Shown one piece after another: positions 3,588-26,353 of a DNA stretch of 26,353 bases. The translations under genes and the position numbers were made by a program. This DNA is from a virus, in IMG/VR virus record IMGVR_UViG_3300027973_000195, positions 1-26,353 of that record, one strand, 5' to 3'. The notes under the pieces were generated by a model. It was given only the letters and a program-made list of their open reading frames with translations, had not been told where the DNA came from and did no database searches. Every line of letters begins with the position of its first letter. The first letter of the stretch is position 1.

Positions 3588-4764
3588 CCGCCTAAAGCGT
3601 TTAAAGGTTGGCGCCTTGTTCATGCGCCCAGGTGTGGGCAAAACCCGCCCAACGGTGGAACTGGTTAACAGTGTTCCCGGAATGGAGCATGTTATTCATC
3701 TGGCTCCCTACCAGTCAGTTTACCCGCCAATACAAGGTACGGGCATACAAGATGAGGTCGCCAAGTGGGGAGGCTACAACGTCCCAGTAGATTTTTTTGG
3801 AATTGAGAGCCTTAGTAGTAGCGACCGAATCTTCCTACAATTACTGAAGTTGGTGCAGTCCAAAACCACGTTCCTCATAGTAGATGAGAGCCTGAAGATA
3901 AAAAACTGGGATGCCATTAGGACCAAACGCATTATAGAGCTGGGCAGGCATTGTGAATACAAGATGATCCTCAATGGTACGCCGATCAGTAGAAACCTTC
4001 TTGACCTGTGGGCACAGATGGAATTTCTATCCCCGATGATCCTGCATATGAGCCAATCTGAATACAAGTCCACATTCTGCGAAACAGTTAAGATCACCAA
4101 GTACAAGGGCAACAGAATTGTAAGCCAGCGGGAGTTTATCAGCAAGTACCATAACATTGACTACCTCTACAGTGTGATTAGTCCGTACATCTATGAAGCT
4201 GATCTTCACCTGGATATTGCCGAGCAGGATATAGACCTTGAGTACAAGCTGGACGATGAGATTAAGCAGGAATATGAGAGGCTGAAAGATCTGTACCTTG
4301 ACAATGAGATGTTGCAACGCATGAATAACAACATCTTCCTGGAGATGACCCAGAAAATGCAACACCTGTATTGTTGTGCAGAGGATAAGTTCACTGTGGT
4401 AAAGAAACTTCTTGGCACCATTGACCCAGAGCGGACTATTATTTTCTGCAAGTTCATTGCCAGCCAAGAGGCTTGTAAGAAAGCATTCCCAAGATGCCAG
4501 GTGCTAAGCCTTCAGGCCAATAGCTATAGCCTTAACCTTCAGCACTACCACAACACTATCTACTGGGATCACACCTGGGATTGGGCAGTAGTGGACCAGA
4601 GCAGGCACAGGACGCGCCGGACTGGGCAACAAAATGCCCTTTGCTTTTACCGACTTAATGGCCCAAAACTTGACCTATTGATGGCCGCTAATAACGAAAA
4701 AAAACAAGGAATGCTACAGTACTTGAAACATAAGACTGTAACGCAAATTAAAACAGAGGTATGA
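3550..4764 (+). CDS. SNF2-like superfamily 2 helicase / DNA-dependent ATPase
   Basis: 404 residues from the ATG at 3550; the frame is open back to 3370, but that part lies inside the preceding gene and makes no sensible protein. Helicase motifs are in order: LLAPQTQAIDRL (Q-motif-like start), Walker A PGVGKT at 27-32, DE-box VDESLKIKN at 111-119, motif III-like LNGTPIS at 141-147 followed by LLDLW, a second RecA lobe with TIIFCKF, and motif VI DQSRHRTRRTGQ at 349-360 (the Q..R.HRxGQ signature of SNF2 proteins). It is near the minimal two-lobe size, with no nuclease or zinc domain. It would remodel or translocate on phage DNA in replication, repair or modification. Its TGA overlaps the next ATG (ATGA), tying it to the ParB/PP-loop pair. 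Confidence 0.85.
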   Translation: MIPLLAPQTQAIDRLKRLKVGALFMRPGVGKTRPTVELVNSVPGMEHVIHLAPYQSVYPPIQGTGIQDEVAKWGGYNVPVDFFGIESLSSSDRIFLQLLKLVQSKTTFLIVDESLKIKNWDAIRTKRIIELGRHCEYKMILNGTPISRNLLDLWAQMEFLSPMILHMSQSEYKSTFCETVKITKYKGNRIVSQREFISKYHNIDYLYSVISPYIYEADLHLDIAEQDIDLEYKLDDEIKQEYERLKDLYLDNEMLQRMNNNIFLEMTQKMQHLYCCAEDKFTVVKKLLGTIDPERTIIFCKFIASQEACKKAFPRCQVLSLQANSYSLNLQHYHNTIYWDHTWDWAVVDQSRHRTRRTGQQNALCFYRLNGPKLDLLMAANNEKKQGMLQYLKHKTVTQIKTEV

Positions 4765-5321
4765 AAAAAGAATTCAAAAGTCCAGTGTACAATGTCATTG
4801 CTGTACCGGTGGACAAAATTGAAGCCAATGACTACAACCCCAACCATGTGGCGAAAAGGGAAATGGATCTATTGTATCAATCTATCAAGTGCGATGGATA
4901 CACCATGCCAGTGGTTTGCTTTTATGACCAAGATAGGGATAAGTACGTGATTGTGGATGGCTTTCACAGGTACACTATCATGCTTCGGTATAGCGATGTT
5001 TATGAAAGGGAGAATGGTATGCTGCCTGTATCTGTAATCGAAAAAGATATCAACGACCGGATGGCCTCCACAGTAAGGCACAACAGGGCAAGAGGTAAGC
5101 ATGAGGTCGAGCTTCAGGCTTCACTTGTTGGAATGCTTAAGGCAGGATGGGATGAGTTAAAGATCATGAAAGAGCTTGGGATGACGCTGGAAGAAGTGCA
5201 GCGGTTGATTGGCCTCAAGGGTATAGCCTCTGAAATAAAAGGTGTGCCATATTCTATTGAACGTCAAATTAAGGAGGCGGGAGAAGATATCCCGGAATCA
5301 GAATGGGAAGAACAGCAGTGA
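4761..5321 (+). CDS. ParB/Srx-fold protein (IbrB-like)
   Basis: 186 residues. The ParB N-terminal fold is clear: VPVDKIEANDYNPN at 16-29, a strand-helix region, then VDGFHRY at 65-71, matching the conserved G.HR active-site loop of the ParB/sulfiredoxin superfamily. HNRARGKH at 107-114 is typical of the IbrB-type branch. The C-terminal half is helical with a possible HTH (MKELGMTLEEVQRLIGL). This is not a partition ParB: there is no ParA and no parS-like array. The next gene is a PP-loop/PAPS-reductase-like protein, the known IbrB-IbrA pairing. Family members bind or hydrolyse nucleotides or nick DNA; which of these applies here is not known. It overlaps both neighbours. Confidence 0.8.
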   Translation: MKKEFKSPVYNVIAVPVDKIEANDYNPNHVAKREMDLLYQSIKCDGYTMPVVCFYDQDRDKYVIVDGFHRYTIMLRYSDVYERENGMLPVSVIEKDINDRMASTVRHNRARGKHEVELQASLVGMLKAGWDELKIMKELGMTLEEVQRLIGLKGIASEIKGVPYSIERQIKEAGEDIPESEWEEQQ

Positions 5322-6433
5322 GAGGGGTAGAGAGTGTATTGGATGCGGCATGTAAACGAGTTTCCTATCTGTTTGATCACTACGAGAATATCCAGCTTTC
5401 TTTTTCAGCAGGAAAGGATAGCACAGTATTATTCCACCTGATGAATGAAGAAGCCAAAAAGCGTGACCGTAAATTCATTCTATACTTTCAGGATCAGGAA
5501 GCCGAATATCAGGCTACTATTGATCTGGTAGAATGGGCTATGCAGCAGCCAAATGTGATTCCACTATGGTACCAGGTCCCCATCTTTATGACCAATGCAG
5601 CCAGTCAGCAGCAGTTGTTCTTATGGGCTTGGGGTAATGAAGAAAATTGGGTAAGAGATAAGCATCCTATAGCAATCCATGCCATTGATGGCAAGTACCC
5701 GAGGCGATTTCATAAGTTTAACCTATGGGTAGGCCAGCAGCTGCGAAATAGACCAGGATCATGCGTATCTGTAATTGGCCTGCGGGCAGAAGAAAGCCCT
5801 GATCGGAGGTTTGTGATGTTTGGGGAGGATAATGATCTTTTCTGGATGCGAAGAAAAAATGAGCCTCACCGTGCATATCCCATCATTGATTGGCAGTATA
5901 GGGATGTGTGGAAATACCTTATAGAAGGTGGTTATCTGTACAACAAGATTTATGACAAGATGTACATGTTGGGGCATGATATCCATACGATGAGGGTTTC
6001 AAACCTTGTACATGAAAAGGCATTCCGGTGTCTTGCTGACCTTCAGGAGATGGAACCAGAAACCTATGACAAGTTGGAAGCAAGGCTGAAAGGAGTGCAT
6101 ACCGCTGCCATATATGCCAAGGAAAACCTTATGTATTCTATCCGTGAGTTGCCGGAAAAGTTTAAGACGTGGAAGCAATACAAGGATTTTCTTTTAGATA
6201 GCATCCATCCTGATCTTTCAAAGCTGTTTCGTTACCAGTGGAGCCGGTTTGGTGATACGGATGATGTGGGCGCATGCAAGTATATGGTGAAGCGCATTTT
6301 ACTTTGCGATTGGGAGGGATCAATTACTTGGGCCAGAGATTATGAGTTCAACTACACCAAGGATCAGTTGCTTGAAAAAAATATTCTTAAAAGGGAAGAC
6401 GAAATTATAAAGAAATGGATGGCAAGTTTATGA
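5303..6433 (+). CDS. PAPS-reductase-like PP-loop ATP pyrophosphatase (IbrA-like)
   Basis: 376 residues. The PP-loop reads SFSAGKDS at 33-40 (usual form SGGKDS), followed by TVLFHL. A second conserved block, VIGLRAEESPDRR at 157-169, and the substrate-side AYPIIDWQYRDVWKYL at 191-206 are both typical of PAPS reductases and of DUF3440/IbrA proteins. The enzyme would adenylate a substrate using ATP; the natural substrate of IbrA-type proteins is not established. The C-terminal third adds a helical extension. Related PP-loop enzymes (DndC) work in sulfur modification of DNA, so a nucleic-acid role is possible but unproven. The ATG at 5303 lies inside the end of the ParB-like gene (19-nt overlap). 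Confidence 0.82.
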   Translation: MGRTAVRGVESVLDAACKRVSYLFDHYENIQLSFSAGKDSTVLFHLMNEEAKKRDRKFILYFQDQEAEYQATIDLVEWAMQQPNVIPLWYQVPIFMTNAASQQQLFLWAWGNEENWVRDKHPIAIHAIDGKYPRRFHKFNLWVGQQLRNRPGSCVSVIGLRAEESPDRRFVMFGEDNDLFWMRRKNEPHRAYPIIDWQYRDVWKYLIEGGYLYNKIYDKMYMLGHDIHTMRVSNLVHEKAFRCLADLQEMEPETYDKLEARLKGVHTAAIYAKENLMYSIRELPEKFKTWKQYKDFLLDSIHPDLSKLFRYQWSRFGDTDDVGACKYMVKRILLCDWEGSITWARDYEFNYTKDQLLEKNILKREDEIIKKWMASL

Positions 6434-20732: not shown

Positions 20733-21173
20733 TTAATCTTCAGTGATATCAAGGTCTCCAACAGGGATGTTAACAGAAACCCCAGTGCTTACTGCGATGG
20801 ATGGCGTGAGTGCACCTTTGTACAACAGCTTGCCTGCGCCGGAAGCATCCGTACCTACTCCAAAATGCGTGACCGTCTGAGTTCCAGATGATGCAGGAGG
20901 GAACGTGATCGCAGCGGCATTGCTCACAAGGTTAGCCGCTACCGTAAACCCTGCAACGGAACGCGGGATGGCCTGCCTTGCATACGATCCGTATGTGGCT
21001 TCACTTGTTGCCTGCGTGCCCGCCTCACCAGGATCAGCCGTGTGAAGAGAGATGAAAAGGCTGCCGGCTGCGACAGAACCCCTCAGACCGGTGGCATCAC
21101 CAACCAGTGCTGCATTGGTGTTGTTGAAAAGGAGAAGAAGAAAATCGTTCTCCAGGGAATTTGACTTGCTCAT
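20733..21173 (-). CDS. Tail-fibre-associated structural protein
   Basis: 146 residues, Ala/Gly/Ser/Thr-rich. It begins MSKSNSLENDFLLLLFNNT, then VGDATGLRGSVAAGSLFISLHTADPGEAGTQA, a pattern I recognise from proteins often annotated as phage tail-fibre or virion structural proteins of unknown exact role. The second half is beta-rich (VTHFGVGTDASGAGKLLYKG). It is the last gene of the fibre unit, 2 nt after the upstream gene ends, supporting a role in the same fibre or its assembly. Confidence 0.65.
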   Translation of the reverse strand: MSKSNSLENDFLLLLFNNTNAALVGDATGLRGSVAAGSLFISLHTADPGEAGTQATSEATYGSYARQAIPRSVAGFTVAANLVSNAAAITFPPASSGTQTVTHFGVGTDASGAGKLLYKGALTPSIAVSTGVSVNIPVGDLDITED

Positions 21174-21175
21174 TG

Positions 21176-21454
21176 TTACTGATTTAAAGGTTTATCGAAA
21201 TGGATCTCTACAATTTTTCCTAGCGCTTTCTTGCTACCTACTTCCACATATGCCTGTATCTCCCATATCCCATGCTGATCTATATCTCCGTTGATCAGCT
21301 GGTACTGAAGGGCAGTGCCGGAAGGGGTGGCCGTCCAAAATCCTTTGAGACCATTGGGCTTTCTGTAAAGTATCCTTGTGACGGTAGCCCCAACGAGGGA
21401 GATACCTGTGTCAAGTCTTAGAAGCGTGTATGAATCACCTGCGTAGTAGCTCAT
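21176..21454 (-). CDS. Small Ig-like / BppU-N-like fibre-region protein
   Basis: 92 residues. The strand pattern GDSYTLLRLDTGISLVGATV, then a turn region, then DQHGIWEIQAYVEVGSKKALG and a final IVEIHF strand resembles the small beta-sandwich at the N-terminus of baseplate upper proteins (BppU family) that anchors fibres or receptor-binding proteins. Resemblance is by pattern only. It overlaps the fibre gene's stop by ATGA, so the two products are probably made together. Confidence 0.55.
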   Translation of the reverse strand: MSYYAGDSYTLLRLDTGISLVGATVTRILYRKPNGLKGFWTATPSGTALQYQLINGDIDQHGIWEIQAYVEVGSKKALGKIVEIHFDKPLNQ

Positions 21455-23703
21455 ATTTTTGAATAAGCGTTAAAGGTTGAAGAAATAATGCTGTCACCGG
21501 ACTTTGTAGATCTGATTCGGCTGGATGCGCTGATAATCTGTGGAATAATTAATAGGCCGAAGGCGTTCAAGGAAGCCGATGATACCCCATCAGCCAACCC
21601 GGAAGTGTTTACAATAGTGGCATACTGCGACAACGCAAACGCTACAGATGACCCACCAGAAGCCGCGGCTGTATTACAAATTGCTATGGCAAGTGCCTGG
21701 GATATTGTAGTGCCAGAAGCTGCGGCCAAAACATTTGCCCTGCCGATGACAGACAAAGATGTTGCAGATGTTCCAGAAGAAGCTCCTGATGTATTGATGG
21801 TTGTAATGCCAATATAAATGCTTGCCGTAGATGTACCTGATGCTGCGCCGGTGGTTGATGCTATTGACCTGGCAGCTGCAGATGCTGAGGATGTGCCGGA
21901 TGCAACAGCTGTAGTGTTGATGGTAGCCCTTACGGTAGCAGTGGCAGTAGATGTGCCGGAAGCAGATCCAGAGGTATCTGTGCCAGGCACTCTTTGGTAC
22001 TGCAGATGCCATTGAAGTTGTGTTAATCCACTGACCGGGTTGTACCATGTCCAATCATACACTGTTATGTCCACGTTGTGATACTCTCCTGGCATATCAT
22101 CGAGCACTGCCAAAGGACTGATGCCAAGAGCATTTAATCCATCTCTCCAACCAACAGACTGCTGGAAATCTGTAAGCCCTGTATCCAGCGTTCCATGGTT
22201 GAATAGGCATGGCATGTTTACAGCTTTAACCCTTGGAGCAGCCGTTGAGCTATATCCTAATGAAGTTGCTACCAGTGAGCAACTAGCCACGTCCTCCAGA
22301 TTACCTACTTCCCACCAGTTTACAACGCATGCGGCGCCATTGGAATACCCAGATAAATGCAGCTTTGTATGATCAAATGTGAAATTTGCTTTCACATAAT
22401 CAATCATGTTTTGTATGTAGTACCCTGAAATCGGTGTGCCAATGTACTGCGGGAAAATGCAAATAATGTTTTCCTGAAATGCAAGAGCGGTGTTCAATCT
22501 ATCATTGATCAACTTGGCAAATCCATGGGTGATAATCAAGTCAAGTTGCGATGAGCTTCCATCGCCTTGATCTCCTAAACCGTGCAAGCAAATCAACATG
22601 GGTGTTTCAGGACCAGCGCCTGCTGGTGTAAACATCCAATACCCGCCAATGTTTGTGGCCAATGGGCTGTTGGCATGCTTTACCCAGCTTGATCCACCAA
22701 GCGCCTGCGCCTGTGCTGAGGTGGTTGATTGACCAGCAGATGATCCACCTGTGTTGGCTGTGGCAATTGCCAAGGCCGATGCTGAAGAAGTACCAGCACT
22801 GGCGCCGGTTGTTGAACCACTCAGCACACCTATTGTACCACTACTTAAAACAACAGTAAATGTTCCATTTGCGGTAAACGTATGTATAGTGTATATACCC
22901 GATGTCGTCTTAGTACCACCTGTGGTTAACGAGGCATCTATTCCATCTGAACCGTCTGTTTTGTAGCGAATGATTACTATACCAGATGCACCACCTCCTG
23001 ATGTTTGGTTTCTGCTATGTCCTGCACAACCTCCACCACCTGAACCTGTATTTGCTAAACCAGATGTCGGAGCTGTTGGGACGTTATCTCCTCCATCACC
23101 ACCAATGCTTGAGCCACCTGTTCCTTTAGTGCCTGAATACGCTCCACCACCGCCACCAGCGGCATAGTATAGAGATGTTCCAGTTATAGAGCTTTGTGTT
23201 CCAGCACCACCATTACCACCATTTCCTTGGTTTGTTGCCGCCGCACCAACTTGAGACGCGCCGCCGCCACCGCCACCTGATCCGTTGCTTGTATTACCTT
23301 TACCTGCGCCTCCATTACTGCCTTGCGACGGTGTCGTTGCTGGAGTGTTGCCTAGCCCGCCAGCCCTGCCTACATTATCACCAGCACCACCACCACCAGA
23401 CCCACCGTTATTGCCTGCGGAACCAACGCCAGTCGAAGAGCGACCGCCGCCACCGCCACCAGTTGCTGTTATGGTGTCAAAGACTGAGTTATTGCCATTT
23501 GCCCCATTTGCAGACAAAGCTGTTCCAGCCACAGCAGCACCGACTGTAATGCTATAGTTTTGAGCGGTTACAGTATGACCAGTGGCAGTTCTTAGTCCAC
23601 CAGCTCCACCTCCAGCTGAGCCATAGGCGTCTCCTGCTCCCGAACCGCCTCCAGCACCTCCTCCAGCTACGACTAAGTATTCTACTATACCAAGATTTGC
23701 CAC
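21451..23703 (-). CDS. Glycine-rich tail fibre with embedded serine esterase domain
   Basis: 750 residues from a GTG at 23703 (no ATG is available in frame). Parts in order: a short start VEYLVVAGGGAGGG (7-20); a Gly-rich domain to about 245, of the type that tips tail fibres; a strand pair (YTIHTFTANGTFTVVL, 271-286); about two 20-residue units with SAGTSSASA and SAGQSTTSA cores; an alpha/beta-hydrolase domain at about 340-560; and seven more units with ASGTSSASA-like cores (575-715). The hydrolase has LICLHGLGD (370-378), the nucleophile GYSNG with Ser454, GTLD with Asp507 and EYHN with His542, a complete triad. It probably de-acetylates or depolymerises surface glycans at infection. The lone esterase at 23861-24601 is a relative. 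Confidence 0.8.
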   Translation of the reverse strand: MANLGIVEYLVVAGGGAGGGSGAGDAYGSAGGGAGGLRTATGHTVTAQNYSITVGAAVAGTALSANGANGNNSVFDTITATGGGGGGRSSTGVGSAGNNGGSGGGGAGDNVGRAGGLGNTPATTPSQGSNGGAGKGNTSNGSGGGGGGASQVGAAATNQGNGGNGGAGTQSSITGTSLYYAAGGGGGAYSGTKGTGGSSIGGDGGDNVPTAPTSGLANTGSGGGGCAGHSRNQTSGGGASGIVIIRYKTDGSDGIDASLTTGGTKTTSGIYTIHTFTANGTFTVVLSSGTIGVLSGSTTGASAGTSSASALAIATANTGGSSAGQSTTSAQAQALGGSSWVKHANSPLATNIGGYWMFTPAGAGPETPMLICLHGLGDQGDGSSSQLDLIITHGFAKLINDRLNTALAFQENIICIFPQYIGTPISGYYIQNMIDYVKANFTFDHTKLHLSGYSNGAACVVNWWEVGNLEDVASCSLVATSLGYSSTAAPRVKAVNMPCLFNHGTLDTGLTDFQQSVGWRDGLNALGISPLAVLDDMPGEYHNVDITVYDWTWYNPVSGLTQLQWHLQYQRVPGTDTSGSASGTSTATATVRATINTTAVASGTSSASAAARSIASTTGAASGTSTASIYIGITTINTSGASSGTSATSLSVIGRANVLAAASGTTISQALAIAICNTAAASGGSSVAFALSQYATIVNTSGLADGVSSASLNAFGLLIIPQIISASSRIRSTKSGDSIISSTFNAYSKI

Positions 23704-23732
23704 ATTTTTTATGCGTATTGTAAACCGCGCCT

Positions 23733-23767
23733 CAAATTCATCATGATTTCCCTGTATGGAAAGGACA
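23733..23767 (-). promoter_or_regulatory. Late-promoter-like element P5 (fibre unit)
   Basis: Minus-strand box TGTCCTTTC at 23767-23759, 23 nt, then TTG at 23735-23733; TGAATTTG there differs from TAnnTTTG by one base. Unlike the other four copies, the start codon (GTG at 23703) lies 29 nt further on, so this mRNA would have a short leader. The box directly follows the terminator at 23768-23794. Confidence 0.6.
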
Positions 23768-23794
23768 AAAAAGCCAGGCCTGAAAAGGCCCGGC
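23768..23794 (-). terminator. Rho-independent terminator after the lysis unit
   Basis: On the minus strand GCCGGGCC pairs with GGCCTGGC (8 bp, one G-U pair) around TTTTCA, followed by a six-T run whose last T is the first base of the late box. On the plus strand the G-U becomes an A-C mismatch, so it should act mainly on minus-strand transcripts. The 66 nt between it and the esterase stop hold no convincing gene. Confidence 0.85.
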
Positions 23795-23860
23795 CCAAAC
23801 CAACAGACTAACTACTAGGCAACAGCAGTAGCTTTATGGCCCGTTTTCACAGGAACTGTT

Positions 23861-24601
23861 TTATTGCTTGATCCAAGATTTATCCGAGTAAAGAATATAC
23901 TTTCCGCCAGGGAAGCTGAACTCAGCCTCTACAGTTTTAGGGGTTGCTTTGCTTTGAGCGAATAACCAATTCCATGCATTGATATCGTTATAAACTTTAT
24001 CCCAAATGTTATGCCTGCCGGTGGGATACAACACACGTTCTACCTTTGGATTGATGCCTAAATTGTTTAGGCCGTCCATCCAAGACTTTGAAGATGATGG
24101 ATCAACAACATCATCATCTTCCGCGTGGTAAAACCGGATCGGAATATTGTTATCGATGTATGGTTGTGAGTATCGGGTAGTGAACCACGATGCCGGGCAT
24201 ATTGGAAGCATTGCAGCAACCGATGAAATGCGGCCTTGCTCTGCCCAATCCATTATTGATCCACCTCCCATAGATAAGCCTGTCAGATATACCCTATTGC
24301 TATCAACCGGGTAATTCTTGATAGCCCAATCAATGATGTTTTGAATGGTACCACCGCCTGCCCAATCACGGTTTAGCTGCGGCATGAATACGATGCAATC
24401 AAATGGCATACCGCTTTGTTTAATCTTTAACGGGAGTGCGATGTCAGAATAAGCTTGTAAACTTTTCTTTGGGAACGTATCTCCCAAGCCGTGGAAGTAA
24501 ACCACTAATGGGAGCTTCTTTACCTTGTCCCAATCATTTGGGTAGTATTCCCAGAATCCGTTTACCCAGCTATGTACGAATGTTGTTTTAGACTGCATCA
24601 T
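23861..24601 (-). CDS. Serine esterase (alpha/beta hydrolase, PHB-depolymerase/feruloyl-esterase-like)
   Basis: 246 residues, no signal peptide, so cytoplasmic unless released by lysis or carried in the virion. Motifs: VVYFHGLGD at 33-41 (oxyanion region), the nucleophile GLSMG with Ser110, an acidic site in HAEDDDVVD (159-167), and TGRHN with His197, a full catalytic triad. It is related to the esterase domain inside the 750-residue fibre: both have HGLGD, a ..DY/W....N.....DS.... stretch before the nucleophile, and WxDGLNxLGIxP. The ATG overlaps the endolysin stop (ATGATG with TGA), so it is co-translated with the lysis genes. It might cut ester links in the cell envelope or glycans; the substrate is unknown. 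Confidence 0.8.
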   Translation of the reverse strand: MMQSKTTFVHSWVNGFWEYYPNDWDKVKKLPLVVYFHGLGDTFPKKSLQAYSDIALPLKIKQSGMPFDCIVFMPQLNRDWAGGGTIQNIIDWAIKNYPVDSNRVYLTGLSMGGGSIMDWAEQGRISSVAAMLPICPASWFTTRYSQPYIDNNIPIRFYHAEDDDVVDPSSSKSWMDGLNNLGINPKVERVLYPTGRHNIWDKVYNDINAWNWLFAQSKATPKTVEAEFSFPGGKYILYSDKSWIKQ

Positions 24602-25185
24602 TTGAAAATCGTTAAGTACTGTTGGTAAAGTTGTTGTCTGTGTGATAGCCCGTTCACGCCTCCGTTGATGATCCTGGTGATGCTAACGGTATCACCGACA
24701 TCTGCAAGCCTGTTGAGGTTGCGGCTTGTCCAGAACCAGATTGATGATTTCACGGCATGCTCAGGCTGGGAAACGATATCCGGGTTGATCACTGCCAAAG
24801 GAGAATAGGCTGCATAGTTTGACTTACCAGTGAGCTGGATGATGCCGCGCCCGCGATACTTCCACCCTTCCCCTGATGCTTCATTGCCATTGCCCATCCG
24901 GTTTGCATATACCAGGTTGGCAATCTTCTCCGGCTTCCGGGCATATTGGGCGGCATGGGCTTTGCCGGTACCAGGCATCCTGGAGAAGTACTTTGGGAAG
25001 GTATTGATCAGCCCATCTTCGGAATAGTTCAGGATTTCGGTTACCGCCGTAAAACCCATGGATTCATGATCACACTGCGCGAAGTAGGCAGCAAGCCTTA
25101 AGGGAGTATTGATCCCAGCCTTGGGAAGTTCAGTTTTCCAGTACGGTTTGAACCGGTCACCTTTTTTTACCAGATCCAGATTCAT
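24598..25185 (-). CDS. Endolysin, glycoside hydrolase family 19 (chitinase/lysozyme-like)
   Basis: 195 residues. It cuts the peptidoglycan sugar backbone at the end of infection. The GH19 pattern is clear: AAYFAQCDHESMGF with the catalytic Glu41, TEILNYSEDG with a second candidate Glu50, then NRMGNGN and GWKYRGRGIIQLTGKSNY (107-124), a hallmark of the family. No signal peptide or cell-wall binding domain is present, so it needs a holin. The small membrane peptide at 25157-25243 overlaps its first 29 nt and is the best holin candidate. The start ATG at 25185 has no Shine-Dalgarno; translation coupling from that peptide is likely. Confidence 0.9.
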   Translation of the reverse strand: MNLDLVKKGDRFKPYWKTELPKAGINTPLRLAAYFAQCDHESMGFTAVTEILNYSEDGLINTFPKYFSRMPGTGKAHAAQYARKPEKIANLVYANRMGNGNEASGEGWKYRGRGIIQLTGKSNYAAYSPLAVINPDIVSQPEHAVKSSIWFWTSRNLNRLADVGDTVSITRIINGGVNGLSHRQQLYQQYLTIFK

Positions 25186-25829: not shown

Positions 25830-26353
25830 TTACCATTCAATCTTTCGACCTCTCCGCTTGGCAAGTTTCTTCCAATTATCGATCTCTTCCTTCTGTTGAT
25901 CAATGCGCTCTTCCAGATTTTTGACCAGGGCTTTCAATGCATCGTTCTGGATCTTATACTCCCCGATCTGTGTGCTTTGGGCCGTCATCAGGCTGTCAGC
26001 TGCTTTGATCGTCTCCTTGGTTTGGAAAATAAACTCTTCGTATTCGGTAGCAAGAGAATCACATACCTCTATAATCCTACTGGTATCAGTTTGTAACCGG
26101 ATCGTCTTGTATTTGATTACCGTCTTTACTCCCCGGTCCTGTAAGCTGTCGTTAACCTTAGCTGTTGAATCGTACTCGTGAGCGTAATGGGTAATGATCT
26201 CGTCCAGCTTTTGGATCTCGATATCCTTTCTTTCGATTACGTCTTTCAGTGAGTCGATTACCTGCTGCGTATTGTCCTTAATCGGCTCATGTTTACAAGC
26301 TCTGATCGTCAATGCTATCACTAGAATCACCGCCGCCGCTGCGATTACTGCCC
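25830..26353 (-). CDS. Spanin-like coiled-coil membrane protein, 5' end outside the window
   Basis: At least 173 residues. The frame is open to the window edge; a GTG at 26330 is available but codons before it (AVIAAAA) continue the same hydrophobic helix, so the true start probably lies outside. After this helix comes RACKHEPIKDN, then long coiled coils (IDSLKDVIERKDIEIQKLDE, and LKALVKNLEERIDQQKEEIDN) to the basic end KKLAKRRGRKIEW. One N-terminal membrane anchor plus a periplasmic coiled coil, at the head of a lysis block, is the plan of an inner-membrane spanin (Rz). The Cys after the helix could also mark a weak lipobox, but its context is poor. Confidence 0.6.
   Translation of the reverse strand, partial: AVIAAAAVILVIALTIRACKHEPIKDNTQQVIDSLKDVIERKDIEIQKLDEIITHYAHEYDSTAKVNDSLQDRGVKTVIKYKTIRLQTDTSRIIEVCDSLATEYEEFIFQTKETIKAADSLMTAQSTQIGEYKIQNDALKALVKNLEERIDQQKEEIDNWKKLAKRRGRKIEW

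Follow-up and report, generated by a model that had tools for sequence, protein, structure and literature searches.

Ester-cutting or esterase-like domains displayed on fibres are known from gp63.1 of phage G7C, from the fibres of Klebsiella prophages and from gp53 of phage DEV. The G7C protein, an SGNH deacetylase, has been shown to act on an envelope ester at adsorption (PMC10743462), and esterase assays support an ester-cutting role for the Klebsiella prophage fibres, which are SGNH hydrolases as well (PMC13123978). Between the near-identical phages G7C and Alt63, the enzyme module has been exchanged. At the lysis stage, mycobacteriophages possess LysB, a mycolylarabinogalactan esterase of alpha/beta-hydrolase type whose gene adjoins that of the endolysin in the lysis cassette. 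In mycobacteriophage Ms6, LysB assists lysis (PMC5707550).

We analyzed a stretch of 26,353 bases, hereafter the window, corresponding to the IMG/VR virus record IMGVR_UViG_3300027973_000195. It encodes two esterases, one within a fibre-like protein and one free, next to an endolysin. As with G7C and Alt63, the fibre module is exchanged between near-identical phages, whereas the module itself is an EstA-like alpha/beta-hydrolase set between short repeats and is unrelated to the SGNH deacetylase of G7C. Because a tape-measure gene is present in its genome, the phage is probably long-tailed. On the strand opposite to that of the structural genes, a PAPS-reductase-like gene (5303–6433, plus strand) and a ParB-like gene (4761–5321, plus strand) adjoin a gene for an SNF2-type helicase.

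Anatomy of the fibre-like protein

The fibre region comprises the following features.
20733–21173, minus strand: head/fibre-base protein downstream of the fibre gene, used as synteny anchor (PF23140, GP4 fiber I gp80; phrog_240, head protein)
21451–23703, minus strand: fibre-like protein, an open reading frame of 750 residues with a GTG start
21980–22744, minus strand: 765-nt segment with the esterase, matched in the sister contig L005 by 111 nt of repeat (BLASTN break points)
22015–22698, minus strand: alpha/beta-hydrolase (esterase) domain, residues ~341–565 (homology, triad and model)
22745–22825, minus strand: first repeat, where the match to L005 resumes for 81 bases at 92.6% DNA identity, left border of the exchange (BLASTN)
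22826–23708, minus strand: Gly-rich N-terminal module, exchanged relative to L005 (BLASTN break points and L005 reading frames)

From N- to C-terminus, the protein is composed of the Gly-rich module, two repeats, the esterase domain, seven further repeats and a C-terminal end. Residues 4–248 match the Pfam family Gly_rich_2 (PF21722, E 8e-19) and residues 5–328 match phrog_2295. The repeats are about 20 residues long, with spacings of 20, 20, 21, 20, 19, and 23.

The catalytic triad of the esterase domain consists of Ser454 (GYSNG), Asp507 (GTLDTG), and His542 (EYHNV), and the domain keeps all three residues and an intact GxSxG despite its divergence. Two family motifs are altered, GLSMGG to GYSNGA and GHNIWDKVY to EYHNVDITVY, and the score against PF02230 is 15.2, below the curated cut-off of 23. 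No GDSL/SGNH match was detected in the fibre with Pfam, and the modeled fold is that of an alpha/beta-hydrolase, with the Haliangium esterase 4q82 (Z 24.5), EstA of Thermotoga maritima (3doh, 21.6) and LC-Est1C (3wyd, 19.6) as best PDB matches. The pLDDT of this model is about 70–80 in the esterase domain and 55 overall, with poor values in the repeats; as its alignment contained the free and the bacterial enzymes, the model is not independent evidence.

The fibre esterase is an exchangeable module

An empty site is seen in L005: these 16.7 kb from a second viral contig run collinear with the window at ~95% DNA identity. The BLASTN match between them (92.6–95.5%) ends at 23709, immediately ahead of the start codon of the fibre, reappears over the first repeat, and resumes again from 21979 downstream. 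Where the window has its interrupted array, with two repeats before the esterase and seven after it, L005 has ten uninterrupted repeats in an open reading frame of 251 residues that lacks the esterase, and the arrays are 94% identical over 175 C-terminal residues. The Gly-rich module is likewise absent from L005, its place being taken by a 142-residue frame and a 475-residue Kelch-type frame. The fibre esterase, which the first-pass annotation had described as spliced into the repeats, is indeed set there: it is a module exchanged within the repeat array, and it occupies the place of about one L005 repeat. The empty site and the different N-terminal frames of L005 thus reveal two exchangeable parts of the fibre, its N-terminal module and the esterase. 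A gain in the window and a loss in L005 are both compatible with the data.

At the exchange border lies a short conserved leader frame (MMNLRRGLQ...; 23704–23743 in the window, 8857–8890 in L005), which precedes two very different fibre cassettes and might be a translational leader or a recombination site.

The free esterase in the lysis cassette

Upstream of the fibre gene, the following features are found.
23771–23796, minus strand: terminator-like hairpin separating the free esterase gene from the fibre gene, kept in L005
23861–24601, minus strand: free esterase, 246 residues (PF02230, Abhydrolase_2, 32.4 against a cut-off of 23; triad; model)
24598–25185, minus strand: GH19-type endolysin (PF00182; phrog_181, endolysin, E 3e-72)
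25830–26330, minus strand: candidate spanin of Rz type, at the cassette's upstream end (phrog_739, a weak match with E 1e-3)

The esterase and endolysin genes overlap by 4 nt both in the window and in L005, where the free esterase is kept at 94% identity; its initial assignment to the lysis unit agrees with this overlap and with the terminator behind the gene. The free esterase gene follows an endolysin gene in the window, in L005 and in the related phage L003, and the endolysins differ, being of GH19 type in the first two and a Phage_lysozyme (GH24) in L003. Upstream of its lysis genes, the L003 phage also encodes a hydrolase of GDSL type that starts with a lipobox-like sequence (4202–4957), and so has at least two putative esterases.

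The triad of the free enzyme is formed by Ser110 (GLSMG), Asp162 or Asp163 depending on the alignment (within the DDD at 162–164), and His197 (GRHNI). Its model has a pLDDT of 88.8, and 4q82 (Z 26.9), 3doh (24.7), and 3wyd (22.0) are its best matches in fold as well as in sequence. These three are bacterial enzymes, whereas the phage protein has no signal peptide and the related fibre domain is lodged inside a repeat shaft; a simple hydropathy scan found an N-terminal hydrophobic, signal-peptide-like stretch in 44 of 53 bacterial relatives. The free viral esterases are prolonged at the C-terminus by a short extension, which in the window spans 23864–23947 (residues 219–246) and is predicted to form beta-strands; the protein of contig L165 (4734–5534) is also extended.

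Kinship and origin of the two esterases

The fibre domain and the free esterase are homologous: BLASTP aligns them over 208 residues at 27% identity (E 1e-19), and tblastn with the free protein as query retrieves the fibre domain at E 7.7e-19. Both have a Ser-Asp-His triad in the same order with GxSxG, and both triads align with those of the bacterial relatives. Both models adopt the alpha/beta-hydrolase fold, with EstA/LC-Est1C-like chains as best matches and the same three solved structures on top in the same order; the fold comparison of the pair rests on these shared PDB matches. The reading frames, the catalytic residues and the kinship first reported for the two proteins were thus all recovered. 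HGLGD, IQNxID, and WxDGLNxLGI are common to the pair and were seen intact in none of the sampled bacterial relatives.

These relatives were sought in about 700 genomes of three phyla, complemented by one pattern scan. They were found in 101 of 296 Bacteroidota genomes at E 1e-8 and in 48 of 199 Planctomycetota genomes at E 1e-10, and are rare in the third phylum, reached via a Clostridia genome (4 of 199). The free esterase is 30–34% identical to its nearest bacterial relatives, while the fibre domain does not exceed 24–26% identity with any sequence.

The first-pass annotation had explained the pair by gene duplication within the phage. This explanation is not supported: the pair reaches an identity of about 25%, while bacterial enzymes come nearer to the free form, with up to 34%. 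The fibre domain, moreover, occurs in one phage and is missing from another with ~95% identical flanks, so that it had diverged strongly before its transfer. A recent duplication is ruled out by the 25–27% identity of the pair against 92.6–95.5% DNA identity of the flanks.

An ancient duplication, in which the fibre domain would stem from a phage free esterase, diverge fast and move among fibres as a module, is a possible but less probable origin. The larger tree unites the pair at 99/85, the three motifs HGLGD, IQN, and WxDGLNxLGI speak for it, and the fibre domain scores slightly higher with the free enzymes (59–67 bits) than with the best bacterial enzyme found (56 bits). Against this, the pair is joined at only 72/75 in the first tree, both trees carry a long-branch warning and show a very long fibre branch (3.6–4.0 changes per site), and two alternative topologies survive the AU tests (p 0.23–0.56). 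Moreover, the 14 rare residues common to the pair are matched by the 14 and 16 that the two proteins have in common with the bacterial relative L103, and the bacterial sample is confined to the genomes and scan given above. Trees and AU tests do not discriminate between such an older duplication and the alternatives.

Distribution among viruses

Three further viral contigs carry the esterase family. L165 has a free form of 267 residues. In L166 (4071–5696), the esterase is terminal in a 542-residue protein with Ig-like stretches, whose gene cluster includes tail fibre and virion structural families; in L167 (2757–7136), it lies between Thr/Ser-rich linkers of a 1460-residue protein, and adjoins a segment resembling by eye a right-handed beta-helix. 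In both L166 and L167, the esterase is part of a large, otherwise unrelated structural-type protein beside virion-type genes. The three tail-embedded forms (fibre, L166, and L167) fall apart in the tree, which points to a recruitment of the family into tail proteins that seems to have been repeated. Scanning viral sequences for additional L166 and L167 forms returned only these two, and a single-sequence viral scan found no further fibre domain.

Among 80 loci with the head/fibre-base gene, only the L005 contig carries either esterase and the other 79, many of them short, have none, which suggests that neither esterase is essential in this phage group. No match to either esterase or to the fibre was obtained among 50,697 named phages, a search that the low-complexity filter weakens for the fibre.

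Proposed roles

We favor as probable the view that one bacterial esterase subfamily serves the phage at two stages, as a fibre module at adsorption and as a free enzyme at lysis. The esterase cassette would have entered the recombination-prone array of ~20-residue repeats via exchange between repeats, and the fibre domain, borne on the virion, would cut or bind a host envelope glycan ester during adsorption. The free esterase would be translated together with the endolysin and, lacking a signal sequence like that of the bacterial enzymes, would get to the envelope only once the holin opens; it would then cut an envelope ester and aid the burst or clear debris. Placement of the enzyme domain in the virion fits the position of the gene and the Gly-rich fibre module, and is read here from the genes; catalytic activity, substrates, and timing we infer likewise. 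Analogy with the described systems makes an envelope ester the most likely target of the fibre enzyme at adsorption, whether for catalysis or for binding, and a LysB-like aid to lysis the most likely task of the free enzyme. The likeness to LysB would be one of function only, the cutinase family PF01083 being absent among the Pfam matches at E up to 0.1; the spanin candidate of the window phage, moreover, would be in keeping with a Gram-negative host and not with mycobacteria.

Given its lost family motifs, the fibre domain may bind rather than cut. That it is an esterase remnant devoid of catalysis, which would bind carbohydrate or lipid, is nonetheless unlikely in our estimate. The W-D conserved after the catalytic His is lost, the nucleophile elbow is changed, the branch is very long, and for the fibre with an esterase-like domain of Pseudomonas phage DEV no LPS hydrolase activity was seen in virions (PMC10925440), but Ser, Asp, and His have all been retained along with GxSxG. 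We find it similarly doubtful that the free esterase is a host-takeover or nutrient gene, placed behind the endolysin by chance and not a lysis protein. Its rarity in related phages and the resemblance of its bacterial relatives to secreted esterases would suit such a gene; the 4-nt overlap and the terminator immediately behind the esterase, both found in the window and L005, and the unrelated endolysin next to it in L003 argue instead for a lysis protein.

More improbable still is the pairing suggested at first, with both homologous esterases directed at the same host envelope ester, the fibre for entry and the lysis-cassette enzyme for exit or to strip debris of receptors; an entry and an exit enzyme for one ester is a conjecture. 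Acetyl and feruloyl substrates are likewise conjectural, and nothing specific speaks for the feruloyl or xylan proposal.

A subfamily of secreted bacterial esterases is linked here both to phage fibres and to a lysis cassette. The window and L005 offer a case in which an enzyme module is present in one repeat-built fibre and lacking in its near-identical counterpart, and in which the sequence shows both borders of the exchange. The free enzyme bears on the use that phages outside mycobacteria may make of LysB-like accessory esterases.
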